Origin: a virus
Length of the DNA: 64,000 bases
IMG/VR virus record: IMGVR_UViG_3300042402_003021
Coordinates: 41,196 to 105,195 of that record
Strand: one strand, 5' to 3'
The notes under the pieces were generated by a model. That model was given only the letters and a program-made list of their open reading frames with translations, made no database searches and had not been told where the DNA came from. Position numbers and translations under genes: made by a program. Numbering within the stretch: the first letter of the stretch is position 1; the number at the start of each line of letters is the position of its first letter. Shown in pieces: positions 1,662 through 63,993 of this stretch.

Positions 1662-1662
1662 A

Positions 1663-1959: not shown

Positions 1960-1973
1960 ATGATCTATAATCC

Positions 1974-3521: not shown

Positions 3522-3530
3522 GTTAATTGT

Positions 3531-4220
3531 CTATTGTATATAGAGTTCGCTATTTGCAAAGGCTTTTTCAAACTTGATTTTCTTTAATAGATTACGCTGT
3601 AGCTTTAGAAATTTTATCAGTATATTTGCTGTATCTTTAACGTCTTGTAAGGCGTCATGTGAATTTTCTGAAGATATTCCGAAATAATCTCTTAAATAAT
3701 CCATGTTATAACCTTTTACATCGTGATTATTTTCAAACCAGCAATATATATGATTCATTAGATCTATCTTGAATATTGGATTAAAGATCTTTTGCTCATT
3801 TTTGATTTTATCAAATGGTCCATATTGTTTACATAAGCGATCTACGATAACCATATCATATCCAATGATATTATAGCCAACAGCTACTGGTGCGGTATAT
3901 GATGTTTTCTTAAAATTGTATTGATTACAGAATTCTGCAAATTTTTTCCATACAACTTTTGGTAGCGGTGCTTTGGCTAAAGTGTCTCTATTTTTTCTGG
4001 TAATCTCTAATGCCTTATCCTCAAGCGGTCCTACTCCAGCTTTAATAGCTTCTTCATCGTCAATTATTGGTCTAATTTCACTATTAAAGACTCCATTTGG
4101 TTGTAGTTCCAACTTCTTCGCATGTATGGCTACTGCGGCTATCTGTGTGGGTTGACATGTATTTGGATCAGCGCCACCAGTTTCAAAGTCGAACACAATA
4201 TAATCTCTATGATTTGCCAT
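3531..4220 (-). CDS. dnaQ: DEDDh 3'-5' exonuclease, epsilon/DnaQ-like
   Basis: A 229-residue RNase H-fold exonuclease. Motif I is D11-x-E13 in IVFDFETGG, motif II is in VGYNIIGYDMVIVDRL, and motif III is H188-D189-A-L-Q-D193. Together these are the full DEDDh set for two-metal hydrolysis of 3' ends. It most likely proofreads for the polymerase III alpha encoded on both sides of it in the same operon, which has no exonuclease domain of its own. Its start overlaps the preceding 79-residue gene by 14 bp, as expected for coupled translation. Confidence 0.9.
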   Translation of the reverse strand: MANHRDYIVFDFETGGADPNTCQPTQIAAVAIHAKKLELQPNGVFNSEIRPIIDDEEAIKAGVGPLEDKALEITRKNRDTLAKAPLPKVVWKKFAEFCNQYNFKKTSYTAPVAVGYNIIGYDMVIVDRLCKQYGPFDKIKNEQKIFNPIFKIDLMNHIYCWFENNHDVKGYNMDYLRDYFGISSENSHDALQDVKDTANILIKFLKLQRNLLKKIKFEKAFANSELYIQ

Positions 4221-4443
4221 TCAGTTTTCCTCTGGTTAATGCAAAAAATTTATCTACAGCTTCATCAATATTATGATACATATTATAACAATGATGCTTA
4301 TCTGACCAAACTTGGTACTTTGCTGCTCTGGATATCAATTTGTTCTTGAGATGATTTTCTATGTTACATATAGACACACCACCACAATCTACAGCGCATC
4401 CAGCAAAAACAACAGCTTTAATATCTTGCTTAGTTATTGTCAT
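4207..4443 (-). CDS. Small protein between polymerase halves, unknown
   Basis: This 78-residue protein begins MTITKQDIKAVVFAGCAVDCGGVSICNIE and has the look of a compact alpha/beta protein with several cysteines. I do not recognise a family. GGAGA sits 6 bases before the ATG at 4443 and supports this start over an in-frame TTG at 4455. It overlaps the end of the polymerase N-half gene by 14 bp and the start of the exonuclease by 14 bp, so it is probably translated with them. A role in the replisome, for example holding the polymerase halves together, is speculation from position only. Confidence 0.6.
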   Translation of the reverse strand: MTITKQDIKAVVFAGCAVDCGGVSICNIENHLKNKLISRAAKYQVWSDKHHCYNMYHNIDEAVDKFFALTRGKLNGKS

Positions 4444-6025
4444 TTTCGTCTCCAATAATCTCCATGATCTTACTTAATAAATCAATTCCAAGAATATCGA
4501 ACTTGATATGTCCTTGGCTTTCTAAATCGTTCATTTCAAATGCGGCTATCATTTGATCGTTTTTGTCTTTAACCATTGGACATATATCTAGAAGTTTTTG
4601 TTGAGAGATTAATACTCCAGCCGCATGTTTGCCTTGCGACTTATTAGTACCCTCAATGTCGATTGCCTGTTTAAATATATCTGCTAGCGGTCCTTCTAAT
4701 GTGCCATTTTCGTTTTTATAGCACCAATTCTTTAATGATTCAGCGTCATTATCTAATGCCCAATTAATGATAGATTTTTCACCCATTAATTCTAGCTGAT
4801 CAGAGATTTCTGCCTCGTTTGGTATTCTTTTAGTTATCTCATTCATTTCAGCAAATGACACGGCATCATTAATCCTTAAAACCTCTTTTAATGCTGCTCT
4901 ACCTTGTAGTCTACCGAATGTAATCATTTGAGATACATTTTCATGTCCATATTTTGTTTTGATATAGTCAATAATGTTATCTCTATATTCAGCTGGTACA
5001 TCGACATCAATATCTGGTAACGAGATGTGGTCTTTAGTGTTTCTACCTTCGTTGTAGAATCTTTCAAAAAGTAGACCATGTTGGATTGGGTCCACATCTG
5101 TAATTCCTACTAGAAACGATACCAGACACCCTGCGGCTGAACCTCTACCGGGACCAGCTAACCATCCTCTACGCTTGACTTCATTGACTATATCTTGCAC
5201 AATTAGAAAATATCCGGCGAGATTTGCATTTAGTATTACATCCAGTTCATGTTTTATTCTATTAGTATATTCCGTCTTTTTATCTTCATTCAATATTTTA
5301 CCAGTTTTGATTAATCTATCCATCCACCCAATTCTACATAACTGCCTCAAATAATCATTTTCATTAATATCATTTGGGCATTGAAATTTTGGTAGTCGTG
5401 GTTTTTCTGTTATATCATATGACTCGCATAATATGTTTAACTTATCAGAAATTGATTGATAAATAGTATCACTTGGCGGAATAGTTAAGTAGAAATCATT
5501 TCTAGTAAAAAATTCCATATGCTCAAATTCTTCATTGTTTCTGATCTTTTTCTTTATATTTGGCAATGTTGTTTTCTGATCCGCACATAACAAAATACGA
5601 TGACACTCTACGTCCTTTTGATCTACATAGTAGATAGCATATTGCTTTATATTACATTGAATAAAATTGTCTAGAAAAATTTTTTCTATATTTAGATCGT
5701 TAGACATACATAATATATTGTTGGTTTTAGCAATATCCTCTAGCATGATATGATCAATATCTGAAACTATTCTCATTAGTTCAAACCATCCAGATTTATT
5801 TTTTGCAATCAATATAAATTCGCCAAAATCACATCCTATAATTGGTTTAATGTTGTTTTTTTTACAGGCTTGATGAAACTCTATTGCTCCAGATATGGTT
5901 TTTTTATCTGCTATAACACAGCCATCATATCCATACTCATTACATCTCTTTGCTAAGTCGTCACATTGTGATAAGCCATTTAGTAAACTAAAATGTGTTT
6001 TACAATTTAATGCAATATTAGACAT
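4430..6025 (-). CDS. dnaE: DNA polymerase III alpha, N-terminal part (PHP and palm)
   Basis: This 531-residue protein is the first half of a C-family polymerase. Residues 1-70 are a PHP-like domain (THFSLLNGLSQCDDL...GIKPIIGCDFG-like order) in which the usual first metal-binding HxH is replaced by NCK, so PHP chemistry is probably lost. The palm carries GPGRGSAAG at 291-299, the catalytic PDIDVD at 337-342, GKHAAGVLIS, and the third catalytic Asp at about 510 in IKFDILG. The chain ends about 20 residues later, just before the fingers. The partner half is at 1974-3521. All three catalytic aspartates are in this chain. It is translationally coupled to the exostosin-like gene upstream (8 bp overlap). 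Confidence 0.93.
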   Translation of the reverse strand: MSNIALNCKTHFSLLNGLSQCDDLAKRCNEYGYDGCVIADKKTISGAIEFHQACKKNNIKPIIGCDFGEFILIAKNKSGWFELMRIVSDIDHIMLEDIAKTNNILCMSNDLNIEKIFLDNFIQCNIKQYAIYYVDQKDVECHRILLCADQKTTLPNIKKKIRNNEEFEHMEFFTRNDFYLTIPPSDTIYQSISDKLNILCESYDITEKPRLPKFQCPNDINENDYLRQLCRIGWMDRLIKTGKILNEDKKTEYTNRIKHELDVILNANLAGYFLIVQDIVNEVKRRGWLAGPGRGSAAGCLVSFLVGITDVDPIQHGLLFERFYNEGRNTKDHISLPDIDVDVPAEYRDNIIDYIKTKYGHENVSQMITFGRLQGRAALKEVLRINDAVSFAEMNEITKRIPNEAEISDQLELMGEKSIINWALDNDAESLKNWCYKNENGTLEGPLADIFKQAIDIEGTNKSQGKHAAGVLISQQKLLDICPMVKDKNDQMIAAFEMNDLESQGHIKFDILGIDLLSKIMEIIGDENDNN

Positions 6026-6926
6026 ATTGTTCTAGCTCTCTTCTTATTTTTTGTATTTCTGATTGTATAATTGTTTTATCTATATTATTTCTATTTTGTA
6101 ATACTTTATATAAATGTAGTGCGAGTTGTTGCTCATCTAGTATGTTCATATTATATATAGCTAATTTTTCAAATGTGTTTCTGGATATAGTGCTATTTAG
6201 ATAATTCAAAGATGTTGATAAATAAAAATCTAATTCGTGCCACCTACACTTGAAGAATGGTGCATTCTCATAATACCACAGCTTGGGCAATCTTTCAACC
6301 ATTGGAATTGCGCCCATTTTAATGCATTCAAAAAATCTAAATGTTTCTAAGCTATAAGCGCCGGGTGGACACAATGCTATTTTTGAGTCGTTTAATAGCT
6401 CAACATATTCTGTATGTGATAGTCCATTATTAAAACCATTAGTAAATTCTAATACATATTTAAACTTCTTGCCAGTTTTTAATATTAATTGTTCTATATT
6501 TCTTTTAAAAGAATCTCTAGTACCAGTGTGTGGTATTTGCCCCACAAAAGAAAAATCATATTTCCTTTCTGGAATCGGTTTGATTTCTATAGATTTCAAC
6601 TGATCAAAATCGACAAATGTTCCTATTGGCATTGGATATGCTAGTGGATTATATATAGGATATTCCCATCTATCTAGCATAAAATAGTTTTGAAAAATAG
6701 CGTAAACATCATCTCTAAAAAAATTATTAGGTATAGAGTGTGTTTCTCTTGAGGTCGCTATTTCAATATTTAGTAAATCATCATTAAATATTGGCAATTC
6801 TGCATTATCATACTTTAGAATTACTCTGAATTTATTACATAATAAGTTGGCTAATTTTTTTCCAACGTTATATGTAAACATATTACCAAGATGAAATTCT
6901 TTATGTAAGTCGAGTAATTCAGCCAT
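6018..6926 (-). CDS. Exostosin-like glycosyltransferase
   Basis: A 302-residue protein with the C-terminal signature of exostosin/GT47-type enzymes: YDFSFVGQIPHTGTRD, then LLNDSKIALCPPGAYSLETFRFFECIKMGAIPMV, then a stretch with W and acidic residues. In this family these segments form the nucleotide-sugar site. It would add a sugar to a glycan or protein, with donor and acceptor unknown. It sits between the polymerase and a nuclease gene, overlapping both by 8 bp, so it is part of the replication operon despite its different role. Phages commonly interleave such genes. Confidence 0.75.
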   Translation of the reverse strand: MAELLDLHKEFHLGNMFTYNVGKKLANLLCNKFRVILKYDNAELPIFNDDLLNIEIATSRETHSIPNNFFRDDVYAIFQNYFMLDRWEYPIYNPLAYPMPIGTFVDFDQLKSIEIKPIPERKYDFSFVGQIPHTGTRDSFKRNIEQLILKTGKKFKYVLEFTNGFNNGLSHTEYVELLNDSKIALCPPGAYSLETFRFFECIKMGAIPMVERLPKLWYYENAPFFKCRWHELDFYLSTSLNYLNSTISRNTFEKLAIYNMNILDEQQLALHLYKVLQNRNNIDKTIIQSEIQKIRRELEQYV

Positions 6927-7401
6927 ATTGTTTAAGATCCTTGATTGCCATATTATAACAGTTAGCTTTTACAATAAAGCCATTACTATGGTCTATATCC
7001 CCCTGTTTTAGAAATCTTGCCTTTTGAAAATATTCTGTTTTAGGAAAATATCCTAGAATCCAAGCCCTACCCCAGTTATTATTTTTGTATTCTATTCGCA
7101 CGAATACATATGTGTCACATTTTTGTTTAGTATTATATGCCGCTATCGAACATTCGTAATATTCTTTTGGTTTACTTGTACATCTTTTTGTTTTTACGTC
7201 ATATTTTTTTCCTTCTTTAATTATATCATAATCATAAGTATTATTAATCGTGCCATTAATAACAGAATTGGCTATTTCTTCTCCTAAAAATCCAGCCAAA
7301 TTACCATCACCATTAGTGATAGAATTAACCAATTTACCCATATCTTTGGCCTTTTGAAAAGCTCGCTCTTTCATCTGTTCTGTAATTTTTACTTCTAACA
7401 T
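6919..7401 (-). CDS. Putative PD-(D/E)XK-type nuclease
   Basis: A 160-residue protein. It has NLAGFLGEEIANSVI, then YDYDIIKEGKKYDVKTKR, matching the GxxGE ... D ... (D/E)xK arrangement of the restriction-endonuclease-like fold. DVK would be the catalytic D-x-K and the Glu in GEE the helix acid. This family includes phage-borne DNases of unknown target. No recognition domain is visible. It sits 3 bp from the RecB-like nuclease gene. The fold assignment rests on motif spacing only, so it is moderately sure. Confidence 0.55.
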   Translation of the reverse strand: MLEVKITEQMKERAFQKAKDMGKLVNSITNGDGNLAGFLGEEIANSVINGTINNTYDYDIIKEGKKYDVKTKRCTSKPKEYYECSIAAYNTKQKCDTYVFVRIEYKNNNWGRAWILGYFPKTEYFQKARFLKQGDIDHSNGFIVKANCYNMAIKDLKQYG

Positions 7402-7403
7402 AA

Positions 7404-8426
7404 TTAACCCGGCGCTGAATAATATCCTATATCAAAATTATCATTAGTGCATTTTTCTATTGTTTCATCATATCCAAAAGCTCTTAAATGATCTTCAACA
7501 TAATTGCACATTGGTTTATTTGTTCCCGGCCAATTGTTCTTATAGAAGTGACATAATTTAGTACATTTAAAATTAGATCTATCATTAGAAATAGGCTTAG
7601 GAAAATCATTATGTTGAATTTGCTTATATCTAGATTCTAGCATGGACAAGAAATTATTTTGATCCTGTTCATCAAAACACATACTAAATGGTCCACCGTC
7701 TTTAATAAAGAAGATAGACATAATTGATTGTTTATATTCTGGAAAAAGTTTAGATGTGGCATAATTATATAACATCAGCTGTGGGTCTTGACATAATTTA
7801 TCATATGTTTTTTCTTCCCCTGTTGCCCAATTAAGTCTTTTTCCTGTTTTCCAATCTATGATTTCTATCACATCTTTATCTACTTCTGTTACAAGATCAA
7901 TAGTACCCTTAATAGCTAATTGACCTTTAACAATTTTACCATTTGGTAATTTATATTCGTATTTAGCCCATCCAGTTTCTATTGGAATATCAAATTGTGG
8001 TTCTGCGGCAATAATTTTTCTATTACGTGGATCAAATTGTCCATCATTATATTCTAACGCTGTTTTAACTAAGTCTTTACAGAAAGCAAGATCTGCTGAA
8101 TGATAGTCATGAGTGCATTTACTTGTGTAATGATCATAGCTTTTACTAATAAGCTTATCTACAAAAGACTTAGTAAATAAAGAGTTGGCAGTAAATGACA
8201 GATCTCCAATCGCGTCATCATTAATAGATAAAGATTTTTTTGTACTACTGGATTGTAATGCCTGTTTGCATTTAGCTAAACATTCCATAACCTTATGTAC
8301 AATCGTACCAAGCTGTGCTTTCTTTCCAGATATGCTTTGATGTCCCAAAACATATGTAATAAAATACTGCATCTGACAATATTCATAATTGTTATAGCTC
8401 GATGATCGAATATATGTAATAATCAT
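7404..8426 (-). CDS. RecB/Cas4-like PD-(D/E)XK nuclease with Cys cluster
   Basis: This 340-residue protein has the PDDEXK_1 order: SSYNNYEYCQMQYFITYVLG at the N terminus, GTIVHKVMECL, GTIDLVTEVDKDVIEIIDWKTGK (catalytic D ... D-x-K) and the QxxxY-type QLMLYNYA. One N-terminal Cys in EYCQMQY and three C-terminal cysteines (CTKLCHF ... MCNY) match the spacing of the Fe-S cluster seen in AddB/Cas4 nucleases. It probably acts on DNA ends during replication or recombination. It lies between the dNMP kinase and the other nuclease with almost no spacing. The family is sure; the iron-sulfur cluster is inferred. Confidence 0.85.
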   Translation of the reverse strand: MIITYIRSSSYNNYEYCQMQYFITYVLGHQSISGKKAQLGTIVHKVMECLAKCKQALQSSSTKKSLSINDDAIGDLSFTANSLFTKSFVDKLISKSYDHYTSKCTHDYHSADLAFCKDLVKTALEYNDGQFDPRNRKIIAAEPQFDIPIETGWAKYEYKLPNGKIVKGQLAIKGTIDLVTEVDKDVIEIIDWKTGKRLNWATGEEKTYDKLCQDPQLMLYNYATSKLFPEYKQSIMSIFFIKDGGPFSMCFDEQDQNNFLSMLESRYKQIQHNDFPKPISNDRSNFKCTKLCHFYKNNWPGTNKPMCNYVEDHLRAFGYDETIEKCTNDNFDIGYYSAPG

Positions 8427-8427
8427 T

Positions 8428-9312
8428 TTATTCCTTTATTTTATGTATGCCACCAACCTTTTGTAGCATTGATTTATTATTTGGTATTATTTCTTTACCT
8501 AGCCAACCCCAGCTATCTAATATTTCAATAAGCTTAATATTGGTTTCGTGTATAGATAAATCTTGATTATCTATAGTTGCATCAAAATGATTACACTCCT
8601 TTAGTTCCGCTTCGCTACTATGACTATCGTCATATAAATTTCTAGTTAAATATATCACTTTACCACCAGCATTCTGTATAGCATTCACTTCATTGATAAA
8701 TCTACAATCATCTACAATTGCTACTAATGGTTGTTCATGATTAATGTCATTCAATAATCTACTATACCAAATATCTTCATATATTTTCCTACATATATCT
8801 GTGCCAAAGAATTGTAAAAATTCTCTGTGTGTCATCTTGCCTTTTTGATGGTAATGTAATATTCCACTATCTACTAATTTCTTTATTTCTGGATTGGTAA
8901 GTAAATCTTTATCTGTAATAACAGATGGCATATCTTCCCATCTATAGAATGTATTCGCATTCTTCATGGAATTATTGCCATATATATTTTCTTGTTGCAA
9001 ACCAAATAGACCAATGCAAATATCTTTGAGCGGAGTGGCAAATGAATAGTTCTTAATGAACGGCCACATATTATATACCGCCCACTCTGCAAACTCTGCA
9101 TCTAATCTGTTAGTCTCTAATAATCCCAATCCTTCTTTCTCTTTGCCGTCATCGTCTATGATGGCCGTTTTTATAACTAGCTTTCCATCTGTAGTAATAT
9201 CAAATCCATCAATCACGCCATTAGCCCTAAGTTGATAGCCATGTAAAAAATTAGAACATGTGGTTTTTCCAGCCTGTTTATGACCAGCAAAAGCTAAAAT
9301 TCTAGTTTGCAT
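8428..9312 (-). CDS. Deoxynucleoside monophosphate kinase-like P-loop kinase
   Basis: A 294-residue P-loop kinase. Walker A is FAGHKQAGKTT at the N terminus. It has the phage dNMP-kinase signature FATPLKDICIGLFGL, then HREFLQFFGTDICRKIYEDIW, and VAIVDDCRFINEVNAI, where Asp and Arg line the active site. Enzymes of this type phosphorylate dNMPs to dNDPs and feed polymerase with precursors, as T4 gene 1 does. An in-frame TTG at 9315 is ignored in favour of the ATG at 9312. It overlaps the primase gene by 11 bp. Confidence 0.85.
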   Translation of the reverse strand: MQTRILAFAGHKQAGKTTCSNFLHGYQLRANGVIDGFDITTDGKLVIKTAIIDDDGKEKEGLGLLETNRLDAEFAEWAVYNMWPFIKNYSFATPLKDICIGLFGLQQENIYGNNSMKNANTFYRWEDMPSVITDKDLLTNPEIKKLVDSGILHYHQKGKMTHREFLQFFGTDICRKIYEDIWYSRLLNDINHEQPLVAIVDDCRFINEVNAIQNAGGKVIYLTRNLYDDSHSSEAELKECNHFDATIDNQDLSIHETNIKLIEILDSWGWLGKEIIPNNKSMLQKVGGIHKIKE

Positions 9313-10342
9313 CAATTACTCCTTTTAGTTGGGGTGCTAGTTCTTTCTGTAGATCTGATATTTTCATATCGCCAGCATCTTTGGCTGAAATTCGTGGTCG
9401 ATAATAATTAAATCTACGACCGCATTTTTTGACTATCTGTTTATAGGCCATATCACCAGCATCATCTGAGTCCGTTAATATAATTACATTACATGCTCCA
9501 CTATTTTCCATTAGTAATAGTTGATCATCACTGATACTGGAACCAAAAATACCTACTGTTTGTTTATATCCAGCTTCGTGCATCCTCCATACATCACCCT
9601 GACCTTCTACCAAAATTATGTTACCAGTTTGTAATATATCATATTTAGCTATATGCATACCATATAACACAGCTTTTTTAAAGCCTTTACTGTATAACCA
9701 CTTAGGTTGCAAATCATTGTTCAATGCTCTACCAGCACATCCAACATATTTATATGATTGATCATATATTGGTACTACAGATCTGCCAGACATAGGTTTA
9801 TTTTTTTCTTTACAAATACCAACATCAAATGTGTTTAACGTTTCTGGTAGAAATCCTCTATTGATAAAGTATTTGCATGGTATATCTAGTTTTAATCTAA
9901 CTTGTGATCTAGATAATTCACTACCTATATCTTGTGGTTTTTTTGTAAAGACTTCTAGTATGTCTAAATTTTTGGTTGGTATTTCTATATCAGAGTGGTT
10001 CAATTTTGTGCCAAGTATATTTTCACAAAATGATAGAGTTTCATTTAATGAGATTTTTTTTCTTCGTGTGTGAGACATAGCCCCTCTAACAAATCCAAAA
10101 ATATTACTAGTATATTCTTCTTGACAATTATGTGTCCAGCATCTCCAATTACCTTTAGCTGAATCGCCATCAACAAACAAACTGCATCCCTCTGGATTAT
10201 CACCACCATGCACAGGACAAGGAAATGAAAATCTATTTGGATATTCTATGTAGTCAATTTGAAATGTATTCAATATTTTGGGAATATTGTCTATCAATTT
10301 AACACAGATACTATATATCTGTTTCTGAGTCAATTTCTCCAT
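9302..10342 (-). CDS. dnaG: DNA primase (zinc finger and TOPRIM)
   Basis: About 346 residues. A CHC2-type zinc finger near residues 40-75 has CPVHGGDNPEGCSLF ... NWRCWTHNC. A catalytic core follows with PIYDQSYKYVGCAGR, then the TOPRIM Glu in ILVEGQGDVWRM and the Asp pair in ILTDSDDAGDMA. It makes RNA primers for lagging-strand synthesis. There is no helicase domain and the C terminus is short; the helicase is the adjacent gene, with which it overlaps by 32 bp. The ATG at 10342 is chosen over a TTG three codons upstream. Confidence 0.92.
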   Translation of the reverse strand: MEKLTQKQIYSICVKLIDNIPKILNTFQIDYIEYPNRFSFPCPVHGGDNPEGCSLFVDGDSAKGNWRCWTHNCQEEYTSNIFGFVRGAMSHTRRKKISLNETLSFCENILGTKLNHSDIEIPTKNLDILEVFTKKPQDIGSELSRSQVRLKLDIPCKYFINRGFLPETLNTFDVGICKEKNKPMSGRSVVPIYDQSYKYVGCAGRALNNDLQPKWLYSKGFKKAVLYGMHIAKYDILQTGNIILVEGQGDVWRMHEAGYKQTVGIFGSSISDDQLLLMENSGACNVIILTDSDDAGDMAYKQIVKKCGRRFNYYRPRISAKDAGDMKISDLQKELAPQLKGVIDAN

Positions 10343-15335: not shown

Positions 15336-15676
15336 TATATTTGCTCCATTACTATTCTTCTTGCCATTGTAAAGTATAAACGATTTTTTGTTTGAAGAAA
15401 TTTTATATATGAATCGAATGCCTGTTTATTAACCTTTTTGAATATTTTTGGATATGTAGTATTGCGTATGCTACTATCTATATGATGTGGATCTATAATC
15501 TCTCCACGCGCATATTTAATATAATATAATTCTTTATCGTCATTAATTGTTTTTTTGGCGAATGCTACTTCTTCATTATTAGTCTCTTTGGCGTTTTTGT
15601 CAAAGAAAGTCCTGACAAGATGTACTGGATCTGGTAAATTTAGATCACTTACATCTTCATTTTCCCACCTAGCCAT
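15335..15676 (-). CDS. Hypothetical protein
   Basis: A 113-residue charged protein (MARWENEDVSDLNLPDPVHLVRTFFDK...) with no motif I recognise. It has an internal EIIDPHHIDSSIRN segment and a C-terminal helix. It overlaps the 76-residue gene upstream by 8 bp and the HTH-like gene downstream by one base, so it is part of the same transcript. Its similar composition to its neighbours supports a real gene. Confidence 0.6.
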   Translation of the reverse strand: MARWENEDVSDLNLPDPVHLVRTFFDKNAKETNNEEVAFAKKTINDDKELYYIKYARGEIIDPHHIDSSIRNTTYPKIFKKVNKQAFDSYIKFLQTKNRLYFTMARRIVMEQI

Positions 15677-15899
15677 TTAATCTCTCCAATTTTTGTTTAA
15701 GATATTTAATTGCTTCTGCCTCTGACACGGCAGAAAAATAAAATTGTGCTTTATTTGATATACCATAATCAGATAGAAGTTTATTTCCTAATACTTGTTG
15801 ATCAAGCGTTCCATCTGGTAATATCTTTCTAATATCAATTTTCATTGTAATAGTGACATGATGTGGGTGTTCTTTTCTATTACTCAAATTATGATTCAT
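15669..15899 (-). CDS. Hypothetical protein
   Basis: A 76-residue protein with strand HHVTITMKIDIRKIL and a C-terminal helix SEAEAIKYLKQKLERL. It looks like a small alpha/beta domain. The family is not recognised. It shares one base with the stop of the FmdB-like gene upstream, consistent with coupled translation. Confidence 0.6.
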   Translation of the reverse strand: MNHNLSNRKEHPHHVTITMKIDIRKILPDGTLDQQVLGNKLLSDYGISNKAQFYFSAVSEAEAIKYLKQKLERLNG

Positions 15900-31572: not shown

Positions 31573-31908
31573 TTATTTCATTAATTTTTTTAGTCTGTTC
31601 TGATAAGAATTGTCGTATCCAGTTATTCTTGCTACTTCTAAAGAATCATCATTTAGAATGATAGTAGTTGGCACAACTCTAATTTTAAAATGTTTTTTTA
31701 GATCTGGTGATTCATCTATATCGATAATCACAATATTGTATATGTCATGTAGATCTGTATTATCATCTAGAAATTTTTTTAAATTAACACAGGAAGGACA
31801 CCATTTGGCACTAAAAATATATAAATCATCCGCAATACAATATTTTGATGTCAAGCCAGCAAATACTAATATACAAAGAAAAGTATTTAAGAATCTAACA
31901 AGTGTCAT
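31573..31908 (-). CDS. Exported thioredoxin-like protein
   Basis: A 111-residue protein. MTLVRFLNTFLCILVFAGLTSKYCIA is a signal peptide. YIFSAKWCPSCVNLKKFL has the redox pair C37-x-x-C40, and RVVPTTII has the cis-Pro80. It should fold as a periplasmic thioredoxin that reduces or isomerises disulfides. WCPSC, rather than WCGPC, points to a specialised substrate range. It overlaps the DUF1501 gene upstream by 4 bp, which suggests joint export or folding of that protein. Confidence 0.85.
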   Translation of the reverse strand: MTLVRFLNTFLCILVFAGLTSKYCIADDLYIFSAKWCPSCVNLKKFLDDNTDLHDIYNIVIIDIDESPDLKKHFKIRVVPTTIILNDDSLEVARITGYDNSYQNRLKKLMK

Positions 31909-33176
31909 ACAATTATTTCTAATATTGGTTTTCCGCCATCTACTATTTTTACAGGTCTATTGCCGGGAGCCATAATATGTTTTTCTGGATTAATACCAAG
32001 TAGTGTATATATAGTCGAGGCCCAATCTTCTACTGACACAGGATTATCTAGTGGATCAGTGGCCGTATCATTGCTAGATCCATATACTATTCCAGATTTT
32101 ATACCGCCACCAGCCATTATTCCACTATATAGCTTGGGCCAATGATCTCTTCCGGCAGTTGGATTTATTTTTGGTGTTCTTCCAAACTCTGTTCCAACTA
32201 CTACCAATGTAGATTCTAATAATCCTCTTGATTCTAAATCAAGTATTAAACTTGAAAATGCTTTATCAAAAGGTGGTAATTGAGTTTGCATATTAGTAGC
32301 AATATTATCATGATGATCCCATCCACCATATGTCATTGTTATAAATCTTACTCCAGCTTCTACTAGCCTTCTTGATAATAACATCCTCATGCCAGCAGAA
32401 TTCTTGCCATATGTTTCTTTTGTTTCATCTTTTTCTAATGATAAATCAAATGCCTCTATAGCCGCATTAGAATCCATTAGCTCAAAAGCATTTTCATAAA
32501 ATGAATTCATGGCAACTAAAGCATCAGATTTTTGTGTTGCATCAAAATTTTTATTGACGACCTCCAACATTTTTTTTCTTTTATCAAATCTTTGTATCGA
32601 TATTCCTTCTGGCAATCTTAGATCTCTTACTTTAAAATTGGGATCTTCTGGATTTCCACCAAGACTAAAAGAAGAATATGAATGACTTAAATAACCGGCA
32701 CCAGCGAATTCATTAGGTACATTTGGTACTGTAATATAGGGTGGTAGATTGTTTTTTCCACCTAATTCATGACCCACTATAGAACCAATACTGGGGTATT
32801 GTATTGCTGGCGATGGTCGCCATCCGGTAAACATATTGTGTGTTCCACGTTCATGTGCTGCCTCATTATGGTTCATAGATCGTATTACTGTTATCTTATC
32901 TGCAATCTTGGCAGTATCTTTCAATAATTCGCTAAATTTAATTCCAGTAATTGAAGTATCTATTGATGATAGTGGCCCCCTGTATTCTGCTGGGGCAAAT
33001 GGTTTAGGATCAAATGTTTCTTGGGTAGAAAATCCACCGGGTAAATATATGTAAATTACAGATTTTGCTTTTGCTTCTGTAGCAATGTTATCATCTGCAA
33101 TTAACATTGAATAATTAGTATTATTAATACCAATACAACTCAATGCGCCAAGCTGTAATATATTTCTTCTATTCAT
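31905..33176 (-). CDS. DUF1501 protein, Tat-type leader
   Basis: A 423-residue member of DUF1501, in the alkaline phosphatase/sulfatase superfamily. The leader MNRRNILQLGALSC has a twin-arginine motif. Family signatures are LPGGFSTQETFDPKP, AAHERGTHNMFTGW, FITMTYGGWDHHDN, and GTEFGRTPKINPTAGRDHWP, which hold the predicted metal and catalytic residues. DUF1501 proteins are abundant in Planctomycetota and of unknown function. It is flanked by overlapping phage genes (thioredoxin 4 bp, GT2 8 bp), so it is not an assembly artefact. Related copies are at 41278 and 42519. Confidence 0.88.
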   Translation of the reverse strand: MNRRNILQLGALSCIGINNTNYSMLIADDNIATEAKAKSVIYIYLPGGFSTQETFDPKPFAPAEYRGPLSSIDTSITGIKFSELLKDTAKIADKITVIRSMNHNEAAHERGTHNMFTGWRPSPAIQYPSIGSIVGHELGGKNNLPPYITVPNVPNEFAGAGYLSHSYSSFSLGGNPEDPNFKVRDLRLPEGISIQRFDKRKKMLEVVNKNFDATQKSDALVAMNSFYENAFELMDSNAAIEAFDLSLEKDETKETYGKNSAGMRMLLSRRLVEAGVRFITMTYGGWDHHDNIATNMQTQLPPFDKAFSSLILDLESRGLLESTLVVVGTEFGRTPKINPTAGRDHWPKLYSGIMAGGGIKSGIVYGSSNDTATDPLDNPVSVEDWASTIYTLLGINPEKHIMAPGNRPVKIVDGGKPILEIIV

Positions 33177-39154: not shown

Positions 39155-39165
39155 TATTATTTAAG

Positions 39166-39515
39166 TGGACCGGATGGGAGTCGAACCCATGTCTTGTGAT
39201 AGTGTTAATATAGCTTCTACAAGTTTAGTTGTTCATAAATTCTTAAGAAAGATTAAAGAACAATCAACATTCATCTTTCCGTACCAACAAATCTTAGCTA
39301 GAACCCGTTGGCTATTCTAGCAGCAGAAGGATTTAACGACAATCTTTTGGACGCTACCTTCATCGCTTCCTAAGATTGTTGCTACTTTCTCAAGCAGCAA
39401 GAGCTAACTGTGTTACGCCAGTTAAAGCGTTTAATCGACTTTTAAAGTGGCCTGTCGATCAACCACTACTTGCTAACCATAATAACTACGATCCAATCGA
39501 TACCTTTACCGGCCC
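39166..39515 (-). ncRNA. ssrA: tmRNA (ssrA)
   Basis: A 350-base transfer-messenger RNA. The 5' end GGGCCGG pairs with the 3' CCGGTCC (one G-U), a T-arm GGG-TTCGACT-CCC sits 9 bases before the end, and CCA is not encoded. In the first third there is an in-frame tag ending ...LNALTGVTQLALAA then a TGA stop; ALAA is the standard ClpXP degradation signal. The exact resume codon is unclear because the region is degenerate. It rescues stalled ribosomes. Phage-borne tmRNAs are rare but known. ThyX begins just upstream. Confidence 0.9.
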
Positions 39516-41277: not shown

Positions 41278-42522
41278 TTAGAATAGTTCTTTAATTACTC
41301 GTCCAGAATTAGCAATCTTCATTGGACGACCATTTTTAGAGGTAAATGTAGTTTCAAGTGAAATATCCAAACTTTTTAGTATAGTTGCCATTAAATCTTC
41401 TGAAGAATAAGCTTCACTTATTACCTTTTTTCCATCATCATCAGTTTCACCAACAACTATGCCTTTGTTTAATTTTCCACCACCAACTACAGCACTCCAG
41501 CTTCTAGCCCAGTGATCTCTACCAGCATTTTTATTTATATCTGGAGTTCTACCAAATTCCCCCATCCATATAATGGTGGTATTGTCATACAATCCCCTAC
41601 TTACTAGATCTTCAATTAATGCACTCATTCCAATATCCATTTGAGATAGTTTATCTGGTAGTGTTGTAAAAATATCCATATGATTATCCCATCCACCCAT
41701 ATCTACTTCTATGAATGGTACGCCAATTTCTACTAGTCTTCTTGCCATGAGACAACCTTTACCAAATGAAGTGTTGCCATATCTATCACGAATGTTTTGT
41801 GGTTCTTTATTTATGTTTAAGACTTGAGTATGTGGACCAAACATTAAATCAACAGTTTTATTCAACATTTTAGCGTGATCGCTTGCTAATTCTCCTCGTT
41901 TTTCTTGAATAAATTTGTTCTCTATTACTGATAGAACTTCTAATCTTCTTTGCACGGTTTGATAATCTACACTTGATTGTAAATTTCTAATTGTTCCATT
42001 ATAATCAACAACAAGTGGGGAATATGTAGCACCTAAAAACCCCGGACCAATACTGGCACCACCTATACTAATAAAAGGTGGTATTCCTATCTGATTAGTA
42101 GTATTTTTTAACAATTCATGAGATATAACTGATCCATAACTTGGATATTCCACATTAGGATTAGGCACATATCCAGTATGCATATAGTATCTACCTCTGC
42201 CATGATCAGCTTCCCTTGTACTCATACTGCGAACAATACTAAGATTATCCATGTTTTTAGATAATAATGGTAAATGCTCGCATATTTGTATTCCATCGAC
42301 ATTAGTAGATATTGGTTTAAATGGTCCACCGCTTGGACTATTTGGTTTTAAATCCCAAATATCTATAGTACTAGGACCACCGCTCATCCATAATAATATT
42401 GTACTTTTGTTTTGTTTTTTAAGTTTTTCAGCATTTGCTAAAATAGAATTCTGCAATAAAACTGTACTTGATGTAAGTGCAATTGTTCCATTGAGATGCG
42501 ATAAAAAATGTCTTCTGTTCAT
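41278..42522 (-). CDS. DUF1501 protein, Tat-type leader
   Basis: A 414-residue DUF1501 protein. The leader is MNRRHFLSHLNGTIALTSSTVLL, a twin-arginine RRxFL type. Family marks are LLWMSGGPSTIDIWDLKPNSPSGG, ADHGRGRYYMHTGY, FIEVDMGGWDNHMD, and WMGEFGRTPDINKNAGRDHWARS. It is the second of three in the window and overlaps the next DUF1501 gene by an ATGA pair, so the two are translated together. The function is unknown; alkaline phosphatase-type fold, exported. Confidence 0.88.
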   Translation of the reverse strand: MNRRHFLSHLNGTIALTSSTVLLQNSILANAEKLKKQNKSTILLWMSGGPSTIDIWDLKPNSPSGGPFKPISTNVDGIQICEHLPLLSKNMDNLSIVRSMSTREADHGRGRYYMHTGYVPNPNVEYPSYGSVISHELLKNTTNQIGIPPFISIGGASIGPGFLGATYSPLVVDYNGTIRNLQSSVDYQTVQRRLEVLSVIENKFIQEKRGELASDHAKMLNKTVDLMFGPHTQVLNINKEPQNIRDRYGNTSFGKGCLMARRLVEIGVPFIEVDMGGWDNHMDIFTTLPDKLSQMDIGMSALIEDLVSRGLYDNTTIIWMGEFGRTPDINKNAGRDHWARSWSAVVGGGKLNKGIVVGETDDDGKKVISEAYSSEDLMATILKSLDISLETTFTSKNGRPMKIANSGRVIKELF

Positions 42523-43808
42523 ATCAATTCTTTCATATATGGATGGTCTACTAAGTATTGTGGTCTTCCTGTTGTATCAATAATAGTAGTTGAGGAAGTT
42601 TCTACACCAAGAGTGTTATATATTGTAGCTACCACTTCTTGAAAATCAACAGGTCTATCTACAGCATATTCACCAAGTTTATTCGTTGATCCAATAACCT
42701 GTCCATGTTTCAATCCGCCACCAAATAATAAAGCGCTATTTACTTGAGGCCAATGATCTCTTCCTGCGTCCTTATTAATTTTTGGTGTTCGTCCAAACTC
42801 TCCCCAAACTATAACTAATGTATTATCAAGCATATCTGATGTCTGTAAGTCATCTATTAAAGCCGATAAGCATTGATCTAATTTAGATCCATGATCTTTA
42901 ACTAAATCAAAATTAGCACCATGACTATCCCATCTACCATAACTCAAAGATACAACTCTAGCCCCTGCTTCAAGCAGTCTTTTTGCTATTAATAATTGAC
43001 TATTATCTGTGGGCGCTCCATCATATTGATATTTATAAGGCTTACCATCTCCATATTTTTCTAATATGTCTTTGTTTACCTTAGATATATCTAGTGCTTG
43101 TAATAACTTATTATCTGTCAATATTTCAAATGACTTTTCAACATGTTTATCATAACTATTAAATCTTAGATTAAAATCAATATCTTGCTTAAGTTGATCT
43201 AATTGTAATAATAGATTTTTTCTATCATACAATCTTTTAGCATCAATATGAAGAGTCATATCTTTAATACTATCCCCACTTGGCTTAAATGGATTATAAG
43301 TCTGGCCTAAAAATCCTCCAGTACCAGAATCACTCCAAGGCATGTGCTGCGTTGGTGCTGCTAGACCAATGTATGCTGGTATAGATGGATCGTTTGAGCC
43401 ATGTAGTCTAGATATAACAGAGCCTATAGATGGTCTACCACCAATATTTTTTAAATTATCTGGCTTCCATCCTGTCATGCATTGAAATGCAGCATGATCT
43501 CCATGAGAATTAATTATTGATCTTATGATAGAACATTTATCAATCCTTTTCGATAGTTTATCGAATACTTCACAAATTTGTATTCCATTTACATTGGTAG
43601 AAATTGGCTTAAATAATCCCCTTATTTCTGATGGAGCGTCTGGTTTTAAATCCCACAAATCGAGATGTGGTGGTCCTCCAGCCAAAAATATATTGATTAA
43701 ATTCTTTTTTTTTCCATTGATTGTATCTGCTTTCAATATATCTGGCAAAGCAAGGGTATAGCTACTAAAACATAATGATCCTATTGATAAAAAATGTCTT
43801 CTATTCAT
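42519..43808 (-). CDS. DUF1501 protein, Tat-type leader
   Basis: A 429-residue DUF1501 protein. The leader is MNRRHFLSIGSLCFSSYTLALPDIL. Signatures are FLAGGPPHLDLWDLKPDAPSEIRG, DHAAFQCMTGW, VVSLSYGRWDSHGANF, and VWGEFGRTPKINKDAGRDHWPQ. The ATG at 43808 is used; the longer ORF would add 16 residues before the twin arginine. The three copies share landmarks but differ much in sequence, so they are old paralogues or separate acquisitions rather than a recent duplication. Confidence 0.88.
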   Translation of the reverse strand: MNRRHFLSIGSLCFSSYTLALPDILKADTINGKKKNLINIFLAGGPPHLDLWDLKPDAPSEIRGLFKPISTNVNGIQICEVFDKLSKRIDKCSIIRSIINSHGDHAAFQCMTGWKPDNLKNIGGRPSIGSVISRLHGSNDPSIPAYIGLAAPTQHMPWSDSGTGGFLGQTYNPFKPSGDSIKDMTLHIDAKRLYDRKNLLLQLDQLKQDIDFNLRFNSYDKHVEKSFEILTDNKLLQALDISKVNKDILEKYGDGKPYKYQYDGAPTDNSQLLIAKRLLEAGARVVSLSYGRWDSHGANFDLVKDHGSKLDQCLSALIDDLQTSDMLDNTLVIVWGEFGRTPKINKDAGRDHWPQVNSALLFGGGLKHGQVIGSTNKLGEYAVDRPVDFQEVVATIYNTLGVETSSTTIIDTTGRPQYLVDHPYMKELI

Positions 43809-43868
43809 ATATAAATTCCTATTTTTTGTAGTAGAATCATATATAAATATACACAATTTATTAATGTG

Positions 43869-53839: not shown

Positions 53840-54501
53840 ATAAACTCTAACTCCACTTGACCATCTTTTAAAGTCAAATAAGAACAATCTTTTTCTGTCC
53901 AGCATCCACTATTAGTATACCACACAGAATGGCTTTTGTCAATGATCGGATGATGAGTATGCCCTAAACATACAACGTCAACGCCTTTTGATATAGCATA
54001 TTTGCGAGAACTACTAATCATATTTTCTGTGCATCTTAAATAGATTTTGGATCGATTCTTTATAAGTTTAGGTAGGAATCTTTTATCGAATCTTTGGATT
54101 GTTCTATATAAATAATCTGCTACCTTTGTGGTTTTAGGATACTTATATATAAAATCATCAAATTTATCACCATGTAAACATAATACTATTTTATTTCCGC
54201 TAACAAAAGAGTATTCGTCTTTAAAATCTACTCCTATTAAGTGAGAAATAATCTCCGCGTCACCATCATGATTTCCTCTTATCCAGACTATTTCCGTATG
54301 TTTGCTCAATGTTCTAAGCAAAGATAGTATATTCCAATGATTCTTTTTTAGTCTGCGAAAATCTAAATTATCAAACAGATCGCCATTGATAATCAATCTA
54401 TTTGTTTTAGAATCTATCAACTCTAAAAAATCATATAGTTTTTTACTTTCACAAACATCACTACCCAAGTGAATATCGCTAATTATGATAGCATCATTCA
54501 T
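53836..54501 (-). CDS. Metallophosphoesterase, LpxH-like
   Basis: A 221-residue calcineurin-type phosphoesterase. IISDIHLGS has the first metal ligands D9 and H11, NGDLFDN the next, RGNHDGDAE the bridging Asn/His, and LGHTHHPII the last. The order is that of the UDP-2,3-diacylglucosamine hydrolase (LpxH) group. It may act on lipid or sugar phosphates or on nucleic acid. It overlaps the epimerase gene by 4 bp. Confidence 0.85.
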   Translation of the reverse strand: MNDAIIISDIHLGSDVCESKKLYDFLELIDSKTNRLIINGDLFDNLDFRRLKKNHWNILSLLRTLSKHTEIVWIRGNHDGDAEIISHLIGVDFKDEYSFVSGNKIVLCLHGDKFDDFIYKYPKTTKVADYLYRTIQRFDKRFLPKLIKNRSKIYLRCTENMISSSRKYAISKGVDVVCLGHTHHPIIDKSHSVWYTNSGCWTEKDCSYLTLKDGQVELEFI

Positions 54502-55414
54502 ATTGAATAACGTCGTTATTATTCCTGCTTATAAAGGCAGCGAAAGTTGAGGCGGATACATTTTCATTAATAAATCTCGACGACCCATCTGCCATTACAA
54601 CAACCATGCCACCAGCATGAAAACTATTTGGTTCACTATCATTATTACAATTCATAATACAGGTACCGGTACTTCCGGTGGTATTTAAATTACCAGTAGT
54701 TTTATCTGATCCATCAAGAGAACCAGCACCACCATCTGGATCAATCCAACCATAACCTTCTGGCCTTGGTAAAACTATGCCTCTACTTTTGCCAAGCACA
54801 AACCATTCTGGCCTTCCAGCACTTTCCATTGTTAGTATTGTTTTAGACATGCCATCAACCATTTCTGATTCTCTAGTTGGTCCCGTTCTATTTAAAGAAC
54901 CCTCAATATCTGCACCGGGATCGGGCAATCCATTAGCAGTATAAAATGCTCGACGTATTCTATGCATAACAATATAATCAGAAGGCCCAAGTGATTTACC
55001 AATTATGTTTGCTGGTGCCGTGGCATCGGCCACTATTCGTGGATAACCTTTACTACTAGGACATATAAATAATGGTATGGTTTTTTGTCCATTGGTGATA
55101 TTAACTAGTGAATCCCATCTTTGATTGATATCATATAATTCTGCTAATGATCCTTCTTCAAAAAATGGTAGTAAAGAAATGCACCAACTTGTTGGACTAT
55201 TTGTGCCGTCTAATGGTCTTGATCGCGGAAAAGATTTGCGAATAGACATATGATTATGGAACGCTAATCCTTGTTGTCTAGCATTATTTAGACATGAACT
55301 TCGTCTGGCCGCTTCTCTGGCACTTTGTACCGCTGGTAAAAGTAATCCAATGAGAACAGCTATGATTGCAATAACAACCAATAATTCAATAAGTGTAAAT
55401 CCTTTTTTCTTCAT
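54494..55414 (-). CDS. DUF1559 prepilin-like protein
   Basis: A 306-residue protein. It opens MKKKGFTLIELLVVIAIIAVLIGLLLPAVQ, a type IV prepilin cleavage motif (G-FTLIE) and hydrophobic helix, followed by AREAARRSSCLNNARQQGLAFHNH, the DUF1559 core. The C terminus (NSFHAGGMVVVMADGSSRFI) is the H-x-G-G-x-N/V-x-x-x-A-D-G-S motif. DUF1559 is almost restricted to Planctomycetota and is thought to be a type II secretion pseudo-pilin. Its presence in this phage is striking. Start ATG 55414. Confidence 0.9.
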   Translation of the reverse strand: MKKKGFTLIELLVVIAIIAVLIGLLLPAVQSAREAARRSSCLNNARQQGLAFHNHMSIRKSFPRSRPLDGTNSPTSWCISLLPFFEEGSLAELYDINQRWDSLVNITNGQKTIPLFICPSSKGYPRIVADATAPANIIGKSLGPSDYIVMHRIRRAFYTANGLPDPGADIEGSLNRTGPTRESEMVDGMSKTILTMESAGRPEWFVLGKSRGIVLPRPEGYGWIDPDGGAGSLDGSDKTTGNLNTTGSTGTCIMNCNNDSEPNSFHAGGMVVVMADGSSRFINENVSASTFAAFISRNNNDVIQYE

Positions 55415-55448
55415 TATATTTCTCACATAGGAAGGATATATGGCGGGA

Positions 55449-58212: not shown

Positions 58213-59001
58213 TTATTCCTTATTATCCATAGTAGTTTCAATAATTTTTGTCATCCTATCTATCCAATTCTTATGCGTACTTATTCTAGTATGTAGAGAT
58301 CGATCATTATAATCAGAGTTTAGTTTTTTATCCTTATGTGAAGTATAAATTGATGAATTGATTCCAGCTAACCTATTTGCTATAAACAAACCACCACCAC
58401 TATCACCATTTGCTATTAAAAATTCTAATTCTGTATTTGGTCTATCTAGTAATGAGCATTCTAGCATACCATCTGTCACTGAGCTAATTCTATTAGATCC
58501 GGCTCTTTTCTTTCCATCTACACGAAAACATCCAATATCATGTGTTCCACTATTTCCAAAGCCGCTAATACTGCATATTTTATTTAATTCATCTTGATTT
58601 TCATATAGTTCTGGATAGTATGATATTTCTATTGGTTTAGTCAAATGTCCTATTGCTATGTCATTTGGAGATATCTTGTTAGATTTTTCATCTTCATCAA
58701 AAGAAGATGGATATAGTGACAAATCAATTTCTATTTCTTCGTTTTCATGAATGATAACTGACTTATTACTTTCAGATATTACATGTGCAGCAGTCAATAT
58801 TATTGTTGGTTTAATTAATACACACGATGCGATATAGTGATACTTTACCCCATCTTTTAACACATAACATTTAATTTTAAGTACGCATTCATGTTTTTCA
58901 CCATAGTTAGTATACTTTGTATCATCGACTTTTGGTAAAATTGTGCCACCAATTGCACATTGATTTAATAAAATTGCTACCATGAATATGATTATTTTCA
59001 T
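58213..59001 (-). CDS. Secreted trypsin-like serine protease
   Basis: A 262-residue S1-family protease. MKIIIFMVAILLNQCAIGG is a signal peptide. The triad is H73 in LTAAHVIS, D114 in SPNDIAIGHL, and S201 in ANGDSGGGLF. It has the oxyanion Gly and several cysteines. Phage-coded secreted trypsins are uncommon; it may digest host surface proteins, affect cell envelope or modify virions. The trypsin start overlaps the end of the HNH gene upstream by 80 bp. Confidence 0.88.
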   Translation of the reverse strand: MKIIIFMVAILLNQCAIGGTILPKVDDTKYTNYGEKHECVLKIKCYVLKDGVKYHYIASCVLIKPTIILTAAHVISESNKSVIIHENEEIEIDLSLYPSSFDEDEKSNKISPNDIAIGHLTKPIEISYYPELYENQDELNKICSISGFGNSGTHDIGCFRVDGKKRAGSNRISSVTDGMLECSLLDRPNTELEFLIANGDSGGGLFIANRLAGINSSIYTSHKDKKLNSDYNDRSLHTRISTHKNWIDRMTKIIETTMDNKE

Positions 59002-60169: not shown

Positions 60170-60198
60170 AGTATACCATAGTTATCGTCATCTGTCAA
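60170..60198 (-). promoter_or_regulatory. Promoter with CGATAAC spacer motif
   Basis: Minus strand: TTGACA, 17-bp spacer containing GACGATAACTATGG, TATACT. Part of the family with 48832 and 51173. Drives the gene starting at 60143. Confidence 0.8.
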
Positions 60199-62488: not shown

Positions 62489-62812
62489 ATGAAAATTGAC
62501 AAGAAACAGATATACGACGAGGTTGAGTCTAAGTTTAGTAACCCAAATTACTCTACAGAGACTAGTCTGTTAGCATCTGAGTGTATGAAACACGCTGAAG
62601 AATGGCTACAACAAGCTGGCGACTTTCCATTCAAGAATAAGAGGGAACTAAGAAAAGACCTTAAGAAATACATAATGGATCGAGTGGATTTACAGGATGC
62701 AAAAAGATCCTATTTTATACCATCATTTATATGGATATTTCTAGCCGGTCAGATTATATCCTACATTGTTAGACTGATCGTGGAAAGATATACCGAAGGC
62801 GCTCAAGACTAA
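62489..62812 (+). CDS. Membrane protein, sole plus-strand gene
   Basis: A 107-residue protein. The N-terminal 75 residues are soluble (MKIDKKQIYDEVESKFSNPNYSTETSLLASECMKHAEEWLQQ), then SFIWIFLAGQIISYIVRLIV is a membrane span. Its stop overlaps the end of the opposing gene at 62809. Plus-strand coding in a nearly all-minus window suggests a boundary of transcription units. Function unknown. Confidence 0.7.
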   Translation: MKIDKKQIYDEVESKFSNPNYSTETSLLASECMKHAEEWLQQAGDFPFKNKRELRKDLKKYIMDRVDLQDAKRSYFIPSFIWIFLAGQIISYIVRLIVERYTEGAQD

Positions 62813-63024
62813 ATCTCAGAGTTGTATTCGTCTATATGTAGCACTTGACACATTGTATCAAATAGTCTCTCTCTATGTAGATCAAGCGTAGCAGATAATC
62901 CTTCTAGGGCTTTTGATGCTACTTCTATATCTCCATTATCTACGGCCATCCTAATAAGACTAATTTGATCAACATAATTAGACAGGCTCATAATTTCTTG
63001 TTCAAGGTCAAATCTATCCTTCAT
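62809..63024 (-). CDS. Small phage protein
   Basis: A 71-residue protein, MKDRFDLEQEIMSLSNYVDQISLIRMAVDNGDIEVASKALEGLSATLDLHRERLFDTMCQVL. Helical; a family seen in many phages (MKDRFDLEQEI...). Start at 63024 with AGGAG ribosome site and promoter at 63036. Function unknown. Confidence 0.7.
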   Translation of the reverse strand: MKDRFDLEQEIMSLSNYVDQISLIRMAVDNGDIEVASKALEGLSATLDLHRERLFDTMCQVLHIDEYNSEI

Positions 63025-63035
63025 TATATATCTCC

Positions 63036-63064
63036 TATATAGGGGCAATCTAGCTGACTGTCAA
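63036..63064 (-). promoter_or_regulatory. Promoter overlapping repeat R4
   Basis: Minus strand: TTGACA (63059-63064), 17-bp spacer, TATATA (63036-63041). The -35 box and part of the spacer lie inside repeat R4. Drives the gene at 63024. Confidence 0.75.
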
Positions 63065-63090
63065 CATGACCAGCAATCTTAGTAGATTAA
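63051..63090. repeat. Repeat R4 of four
   Basis: Plus strand TAGCTGACT-N14-CAATCTTA, with constant 14-base spacing. Four copies occur only in this region. R4 embeds a promoter -35 on the minus strand. Confidence 0.7.
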
Positions 63091-63099
63091 GTAAGACAA

Positions 63100-63270
63100 T
63101 CATGAGGCAAGCCGCATAGTTAATAAAGTAAATGTACTATGTGTGAGATGTATACTAAGCTCCTCATCCACCCAAGCCCACGCGGCCTCTGAACTATCAA
63201 ATGGACCATAGTAAAAATCATTACCATTGGCCCCGTCTATACGTCTTATGATATACTTCATCTTATGCAT
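63100..63270 (-). CDS. Small phage protein
   Basis: A 56-residue protein, MHKMKYIIRR, then IDGANGNDFY, YGPFDSSEAA, WAWVDEELSI, HLTHSTFTLL. The K-Y-I-I-R ... YxGPF-S-xx-A-A-W pattern is common among small phage proteins. It lies in the repeat region between R4 and R3. Function unknown. Confidence 0.65.
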   Translation of the reverse strand: MHKMKYIIRRIDGANGNDFYYGPFDSSEAAWAWVDEELSIHLTHSTFTLLTMRLAS

Positions 63271-63356
63271 AAATTATATACCAAGAGGGTGTTATGATTT
63301 ACATCTATCACATACTATATTATCGTCAAAAATACTACTAGTACATCAGTTAATTT

Positions 63357-63396
63357 TAGCTGACTACCACCACAAGAACCAATCTTATATATTTAG
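63357..63396. repeat. Repeat R3 of four
   Basis: TAGCTGACT-N14-CAATCTTATATATTTAG on the plus strand. It matches R2 beyond the core, including the TATATATTT end. Confidence 0.7.
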
Positions 63397-63408
63397 CAAA
63401 GACAAAAC

Positions 63409-63448
63409 TAGCTGACTACCAGCACAGGGAGCAATCTTATATATTTTG
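63409..63448. repeat. Repeat R2 of four
   Basis: TAGCTGACT-N14-CAATCTTATATATTTTG on the plus strand. It lies 52 bp from R3. Confidence 0.7.
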
Positions 63449-63520
63449 GTTGGACAGTCCTATTGAATGTCAAATTGGGCAATATACACAGTAGAAACAA
63501 AATGCCACATATAGGCACTT

Positions 63521-63560
63521 TAGCTGACTGTGGGCATCTGGAGCAATCTTAAAAGATAAG
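63521..63560. repeat. Repeat R1 of four
   Basis: TAGCTGACT-N14-CAATCTTAAAAGATAAG on the plus strand. The most divergent tail. Confidence 0.7.
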
Positions 63561-63631
63561 ATACGACATATGGCCCAGCCCATACCCCCCTACTCGGGTG
63601 GTGCATTAGAAATATTACTCCTATACCATCC

Positions 63632-63659
63632 ATTATACCACGTACTGATGGGATGTCAA
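63632..63659 (-). promoter_or_regulatory. Consensus promoter at head of repeat region
   Basis: Minus strand: TTGACA (63654-63659), 16-bp spacer, TATAAT (63632-63637). Both boxes are perfect. Transcription would go through R1, R2, R3 and then the 56-residue gene. Confidence 0.85.
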
Positions 63660-63712
63660 CCTAAGTCCTTTCGTGGCAATGACTTATAGAAACTGGGGCG
63701 GGCCGGGCCGCA

Positions 63713-63741
63713 CGTAAATCCTTTGCCAATAAGGACTTACG
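63713..63741 (-). terminator. Hairpin downstream of 63757 gene
   Basis: Stem CGTAAxTCCTT/AAGGAxTTACG, ten pairs and one mismatch, seven-base loop. It follows the 63757 gene on the minus strand. No U tract, so terminator function is uncertain. Confidence 0.45.
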
Positions 63742-63756
63742 GCGACCACGGTTTCG

Positions 63757-63993
63757 CTACGCTTCCCAAGCAGTTTTGATCTCATCCATCGCGTCTTGAA
63801 TCTTACGATGCACAGGCGTATCCTTATTCACTTTCTTATAATCTTCGATTACTGGCGGCTCATAATCTGCGGTGAAGAATCCAGCGTTTTCCTCAACAAA
63901 GTCTAGATCCAGTTCACCAATAAGATCATGAAGTTCGTCAGGGTCTTTTGCCTCGACCACAAACTCTGCCGCTTTTGCTTCCACGTAATTCAT
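63757..63993 (-). CDS. Small acidic protein
   Basis: A 78-residue acidic protein (MNYVEAKAAEFVVEAKDPDELHDLIGELDLDFVEENAGFFTADYEPPVIEDYKKV). Higher G+C than most genes here. It is the last gene before the window edge, and its promoter would be outside. No family is recognised. Confidence 0.6.
   Translation of the reverse strand: MNYVEAKAAEFVVEAKDPDELHDLIGELDLDFVEENAGFFTADYEPPVIEDYKKVNKDTPVHRKIQDAMDEIKTAWEA

Follow-up and report, generated by a model that had tools for sequence, protein, structure and literature searches.

The paired operators of gal, lac, and lambda, which are short and palindromic, act through DNA looping, and T4-like phages carry PeSL, promoter cassettes with stem-loops. 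Cluster A mycobacteriophages such as L5 and TipsytheTRex possess operators and stoperators, 13-bp sites that occur more than 20 times genome-wide and are bound by a known repressor (PMC9283540, PMC6550527). These sites follow the direction of transcription and occur both at promoters and in short gaps between genes, and their repressor, with two DNA-binding domains (an HTH and a stoperator domain), halts both initiation and elongation (PMC9283540). In cluster K, the SAS is a 13-bp sequence, GGGATAGGAGCCC, which holds the Shine-Dalgarno sequence and lies 3 to 7 bp from the start codon; its extended form, ESAS, includes an inverted repeat whose spacer varies (PMC3203893).

Here, we describe a ~48-base control element that, as far as we found, had not been described before. 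A group of uncultivated large phages bears several copies of it at early promoters and ahead of early genes. It appeared as a four-copy repeat in a 64,000-nucleotide stretch of a virus record (hereafter, the window). Like the cluster A operators and stoperators, the element is asymmetric, co-oriented with transcription, found at promoters and in short intergenic spaces, and present several times per genome; unlike them, it measures ~48 bp, occurs 1 to 8 times per record (mostly 4 to 5) within a single stretch, and is unrelated in sequence. Because site length and number differ, and a regulator is known only for the mycobacteriophage sites, we do not file it as a stoperator; the resemblance is one of layout only. 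With SAS and ESAS, whose genes are non-structural, it shares being repeated, mostly co-oriented, and directly in front of start codons, but it ends before the Shine-Dalgarno sequence, differs in sequence, and lies upstream of promoters in a third of its copies. Like PeSL, it is a repeated unit tied to early promoters, yet it contains no conserved stem-loop. Finally, as in gal, lac, and lambda, two sites can lie ~100 bp apart with a promoter in between, although the sites are long, asymmetric, and co-oriented, and their spacing follows no strict helical phasing.

RESULTS

Four copies of a 48-base unit lie behind a consensus promoter

The first-pass annotation of the window had reported a repeat with a 14-base middle, present four times in a non-coding region with a strong promoter. 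The repeat is real: a scan of the 64-kb window found four perfect matches to TAGCTGACT-N14-CAATCTTA, at 63051, 63357, 63409, and 63521, and no fifth even with three mismatches allowed, whereas 100 shuffles of the window yielded a mean of 0.30 matches and never reached four. The window forms the right-hand 64 kb of a 105,195-base record, which holds these same four copies and no others, even at three mismatches; the repeats lie close to the contig end, at a distance of ~450 to 950 bases. Past each copy, after 13 further bases, stands GACA, which is TGTC on the minus strand, so that the unit extends beyond what was first described. On the minus strand, which is the transcribed strand and the direction of nearly all genes in the repeat-bearing part of the record, it reads TGTC-N13-TAAGATTG-N14-AGTCAGCTA, ~48 bases in all. 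Within the 14-base middle, the four copies also have a T and a TG in common.

Upstream of all four copies, at 63632..63659 on the minus strand, lies a sigma70-type promoter, TTGACA-16-TATAAT with an extended −10 (TG). It matches the consensus at 12 of 12 positions, which bears out the claim of a strong promoter, and is the sole occurrence of TTGACN..GGTATAAT in the window; judged by its sequence, it would transcribe all four copies. The description of the region as non-coding needs correction, since a 53-codon ORF (63100..63261, minus) separates copies 2 and 1 and a 71-aa gene (MKDRFDLE..., 62809..63024, minus) follows copy 1. Homologues of the ORF are limited to near-identical contigs and it has no Pfam match; the family of the 71-aa gene is frequent in large-phage contigs.

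All four copies are exact matches on the minus strand (scores refer to the model R1 introduced below). The consensus promoter precedes copy 4 (63521..63568, 23.3 bits) by ~63 bases, and a terminator-like hairpin (63498..63522, minus; from a consensus scan only) follows this copy directly. Copy 3 (63409..63456, 24.0 bits) belongs, like copy 4, to the leader of this promoter, between it and the 53-codon ORF, and copy 2 (63357..63404, 27.7 bits) lies in front of that ORF. Thirty-one bases after the AGTCAGC of copy 2, the same distance as in the relative L126, starts GACGATAATAT (63317..63327, minus), the spacer motif found in this phage group's promoter family. At this site it lacks good −35 and −10 hexamers and may represent a promoter for the 53-codon ORF that is weak or has decayed. 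Copy 1 (63051..63098, 30.8 bits) is intercistronic, with its end 27 bases upstream of the 71-aa start codon, and contains the minus-strand −35 box noticed earlier, a TTGACA 17 bases before TATATA. Copies 1 and 4, as well as 2 and 3, resemble duplicates, and copies 1, 3, and 4 are without the tight promoter spacing typical of the relatives described below.

A hairpin, GTAAGTCCTT...AAGGATTTAC, lies upstream of the window promoter (63560-63770, minus), and the relative L119 carries at least nine hairpin-like CGTAAGT-N15-ACTTACG repeats (627-9333); such hairpins may form a family of terminators in this phage group. On the minus strand of the window, near 60198, 52140, 51201, and 48859, promoters of the form TTGACA-N-CGATA-N-TATAMT occur with no element nearby, so the element is carried by some promoters only.

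The element is conserved in diverged form

An exact pattern scan of viral contigs returned three near-identical contigs, with all four copies at the same spacing, and four further single matches; among 84,980 prokaryote genomes, it returned six single matches, each in a bacterium. We put the single matches down to chance; the viral ones lack the TGTC block. Close copies of the window element are confined to near-identical contigs, and a blastn search of the INPHARED phages found nothing. The 71-aa gene proved no route to element-bearing relatives, as its family is common but the repeat is absent in front of its homologues (91 relatives). One near-identical contig, L009, runs past the end of the window and holds a 403-aa gene with a weak DUF932 match. 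This gene led to 24 loci, at identities down to 50%, many of which have a diverged element; in L126, for example, TGTCTTAGTCTATCTATTAAGATCGTGCCAATCGTGGTAGTCAGCGA is followed by AAAAAGGAG and a start codon.

We aligned 48 copies (alignment A1), built a sequence-only model (R1) from them, and added further loci via the neighbouring zinc-ribbon gene. Over all loci, R1 gave 147 hits, representing 88 distinct copies, part of which had served to train it. The confident copies are all oriented in the sense of the accompanying genes, that is, with transcription. Ten whole virus records contain 1 to 8 matches each, mostly 4 to 5, which, bar a few weak partial ones, fall on one strand and within one stretch of at most ~12 kb; on the window's own record, R1 finds exactly the four copies. 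Loci with more distant homologues of the DUF932-like and zinc-ribbon genes lack the element. The repeat, for which a search of the whole genome and of relatives had been proposed, with lack of conservation as the outcome that would speak against it, is therefore conserved, in a diverged form that was reached through neighbouring genes and not through the exact pattern.

Fixed blocks surround a drifting middle

On the transcribed strand, the consensus is TGT[CA]YTACCC-N-A-N8-AGATC-(14-16 variable)-AG[TC]CAG[CT]GA, ~47 to 50 bp, with TGT, the A at position 12, and AG.CAG near- or fully invariant. The conserved blocks are spaced ~20 bases apart, about two helical turns, and the three of them stay fixed while the remainder of each copy diverges to near random. 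The middle, which in the relatives is 14, 15, or 16 bases long, tends to hold an internal direct repeat, such as GTGAC-AATA-GTGAC, GCCAC-TAAT-GCCAC, or GAGGG-ATAT-GAGGG. Across 30 middles dissimilar to one another, the first part and the last share 3.23 matches of 5, compared to 2.62 for shuffled pairs, and none of 5000 shuffles reached this resemblance. The repeated word itself varies between phages and even among copies within one phage.

Copies track promoters and gene starts

Promoter positions were taken from a simple sigma70-type scan, and the copies were compared with random positions. In these counts, which overstate the number of independent events, as the relatives are not independent, though several different downstream genes are involved, 23 of the 88 copies have their first base −2 to +10 bases after a −10 hexamer, where transcription is expected to start (random, 2.4%); 28 end 10 to 30 bases, mostly 17 to 21, before a TTGACA-like −35 box (random, 3.5%); and 38 have a Shine-Dalgarno sequence and start codon within 27 bases (random, 13%). 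Nineteen promoters are flanked by one copy on each side, the two copies lying 90 to 139 bases apart with no strict helical phasing. Most promoters near copies follow a common pattern, TTGACA-N4..6-CGATA-N-TATAAT or TATACT, and identical spacing recurs before different downstream genes. The linkers between upstream copies and −35 boxes have a CTAAAGTTT-like stretch in common, so inheritance of cassettes may partly account for the fixed spacing between element and promoter. Many copies are probably transcribed, as the preceding gene ends within several of the upstream ones.

DISCUSSION

Beyond its conservation, orientation, and positions, which are matters of observation, the element probably acts as double-stranded DNA bound by a phage protein, and the sign of its effect we likewise infer. 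We favor, with a probability of roughly 55%, reading the copies as asymmetric DNA operators, similar to operators and stoperators, for a phage regulator, on the grounds that the blocks lie about two helical turns apart, that copies stand on both sides of promoters, and that others directly precede genes. A phage-specific regulator would bind the asymmetric ~47- to 50-bp cis-regulatory element. With copies before the −35 box and at the transcription start, it could repress (or gate) a promoter from its two flanks, possibly via a short DNA loop, and intergenic copies directly before a Shine-Dalgarno sequence could affect polymerase during elongation, or a weak promoter close by, in the manner of stoperators. 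Conservation in diverged relatives, positions tied to promoters on both sides, and the lack of a consensus RNA structure support operators, and among the four options raised by the first-pass annotation (iteron, operator, regulatory RNA, and decayed coding motif), a protein-binding DNA element is the best supported. Several observations count against it. An RNA role could explain why a weak hairpin scores above shuffles; many upstream copies reach into the end of the preceding gene and may thus be transcribed as well; a drifting direct repeat is unlike what one sequence-specific protein should demand; and copies 1, 3, and 4 lack the promoter spacing of the relatives, with cassette inheritance as a possible partial source of fixed spacing. 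No regulator candidate emerged among the proteins scanned, and fold searches with the zinc-ribbon protein and a 77-aa protein encoded beside the element gave no match at E < 0.001.

The main rival to operators is a role in 5′ leaders, where the element would be an RNA motif, leader or intercistronic, through which a phage or host factor controls elongation (by antitermination or attenuation) or translation. We consider this possible but rather unlikely. The copies run in the sense direction, many span exactly the interval from transcription start to Shine-Dalgarno sequence, and copy 4 is followed by its terminator-like hairpin, all of which an RNA would account for; the 28 copies at a preferred distance upstream of promoters fit it poorly. 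The structural evidence is divided as well. A 4-bp hairpin (positions 12-15 with 20-23) beats shuffles (0 of 500 for covariation; z of 4.2 in a separate test), in keeping with the regulatory RNA that had been suggested, but it is broken in ~30% of alignment cells and becomes weaker in the larger set. Moreover, RNAalifold predicts no pairs on either 48 or 147 sequences, the variable middle gives no pairing signal with any flank, the 5′ flank shows no clear sign of pairing to the left half, and no relevant Rfam match appears at E up to 1. The drifting middle raises a different thought, which we regard as improbable: three fixed blocks around a middle that changes in sequence while staying a direct repeat (X-N3..4-X, period 8 to 10) might represent a new kind of control element. 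If so, the retained repeat would suggest that repetition as such is recognized, or that pairing or strand exchange is involved, rather than ordinary sequence-specific operator binding.

A promoter for an alternative polymerase specificity, of phage or host, would provide a second start before the same genes, and both the 38 copies directly preceding gene starts and the tandem arrangement with sigma70-type promoters would suit it. Yet the element ends ~20 bases before the −35 box of another promoter as frequently as it precedes a gene, it has no conserved −10-like stretch, and its middle varies freely, which leaves such a promoter very unlikely. We give equally little credence to the element travelling as a passenger, with no regulatory role of its own, in a promoter cassette that is mobile or was duplicated and that recombination has spread. 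The CTAAAGTTT-like linkers and the duplicate-like copy pairs of the window speak for such spread, but with three blocks fixed and the rest near random, selection on the blocks is needed.

Origin iterons and a decayed coding motif, both proposed earlier, we reject as extremely improbable, even though several copies are intergenic and peptide-like frames occur on the minus strand. Copies in the relatives spread over up to ~12 kb, can lie several kilobases apart, and follow promoters and gene starts, and the trend in skew merely tracks gene direction. The minus-strand frame (KI...SQL) is present as described but bears no sign of peptide selection: the middle of 14, 15, or 16 bases keeps no frame, and the wobble bases are conserved to the same degree as the rest. 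We also rejected a second frame that ends in a stop in each window copy ([LI]RL[LV]...VS*), with an ATGA overlap at copy 1 and a Shine-Dalgarno sequence at copy 4, because most relatives end in CGA, TGA, or CCA in place of the window's CTAR and because the length of the middle changes.

The element offers a sequence signature for an early regulatory circuit of a large uncultivated phage lineage. If the copies are operators, early genes under common control could be predicted from them, and the copies could serve as bait for the regulator.

Genome context

The window encodes a DUF1559 protein, which carries an N-terminal methylation motif, as well as three DUF1501 proteins (31905-33176, 41278-43856, and 54494-55426, minus). 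This content of cell-like families suggests, on our assumption and from gene content alone, a Planctomycetota-like host. A tmRNA gene with the tag GVTQLALAA (39165-39515, minus) adjoins a Thy1-type thymidylate synthase gene, and DNA polymerase III alpha occupies two ORFs (1974-6025, minus), one for the PHP/NTPase part and one for the finger part, which flank an ORF for an RNase T-type exonuclease. A trypsin-like protease is encoded at 58213-59001 (minus). Among the relatives, L009 encodes a phage protein with a ribosomal protein L7/L12 C-terminal domain (1453-1848), and L119 contains a group I intron (15539-15728). To the left of the window, at positions 4610-4710 of the virus record, a perfect repeat with a 30-base period, AAGTTGCTG..., lies in a block of plus-strand genes.
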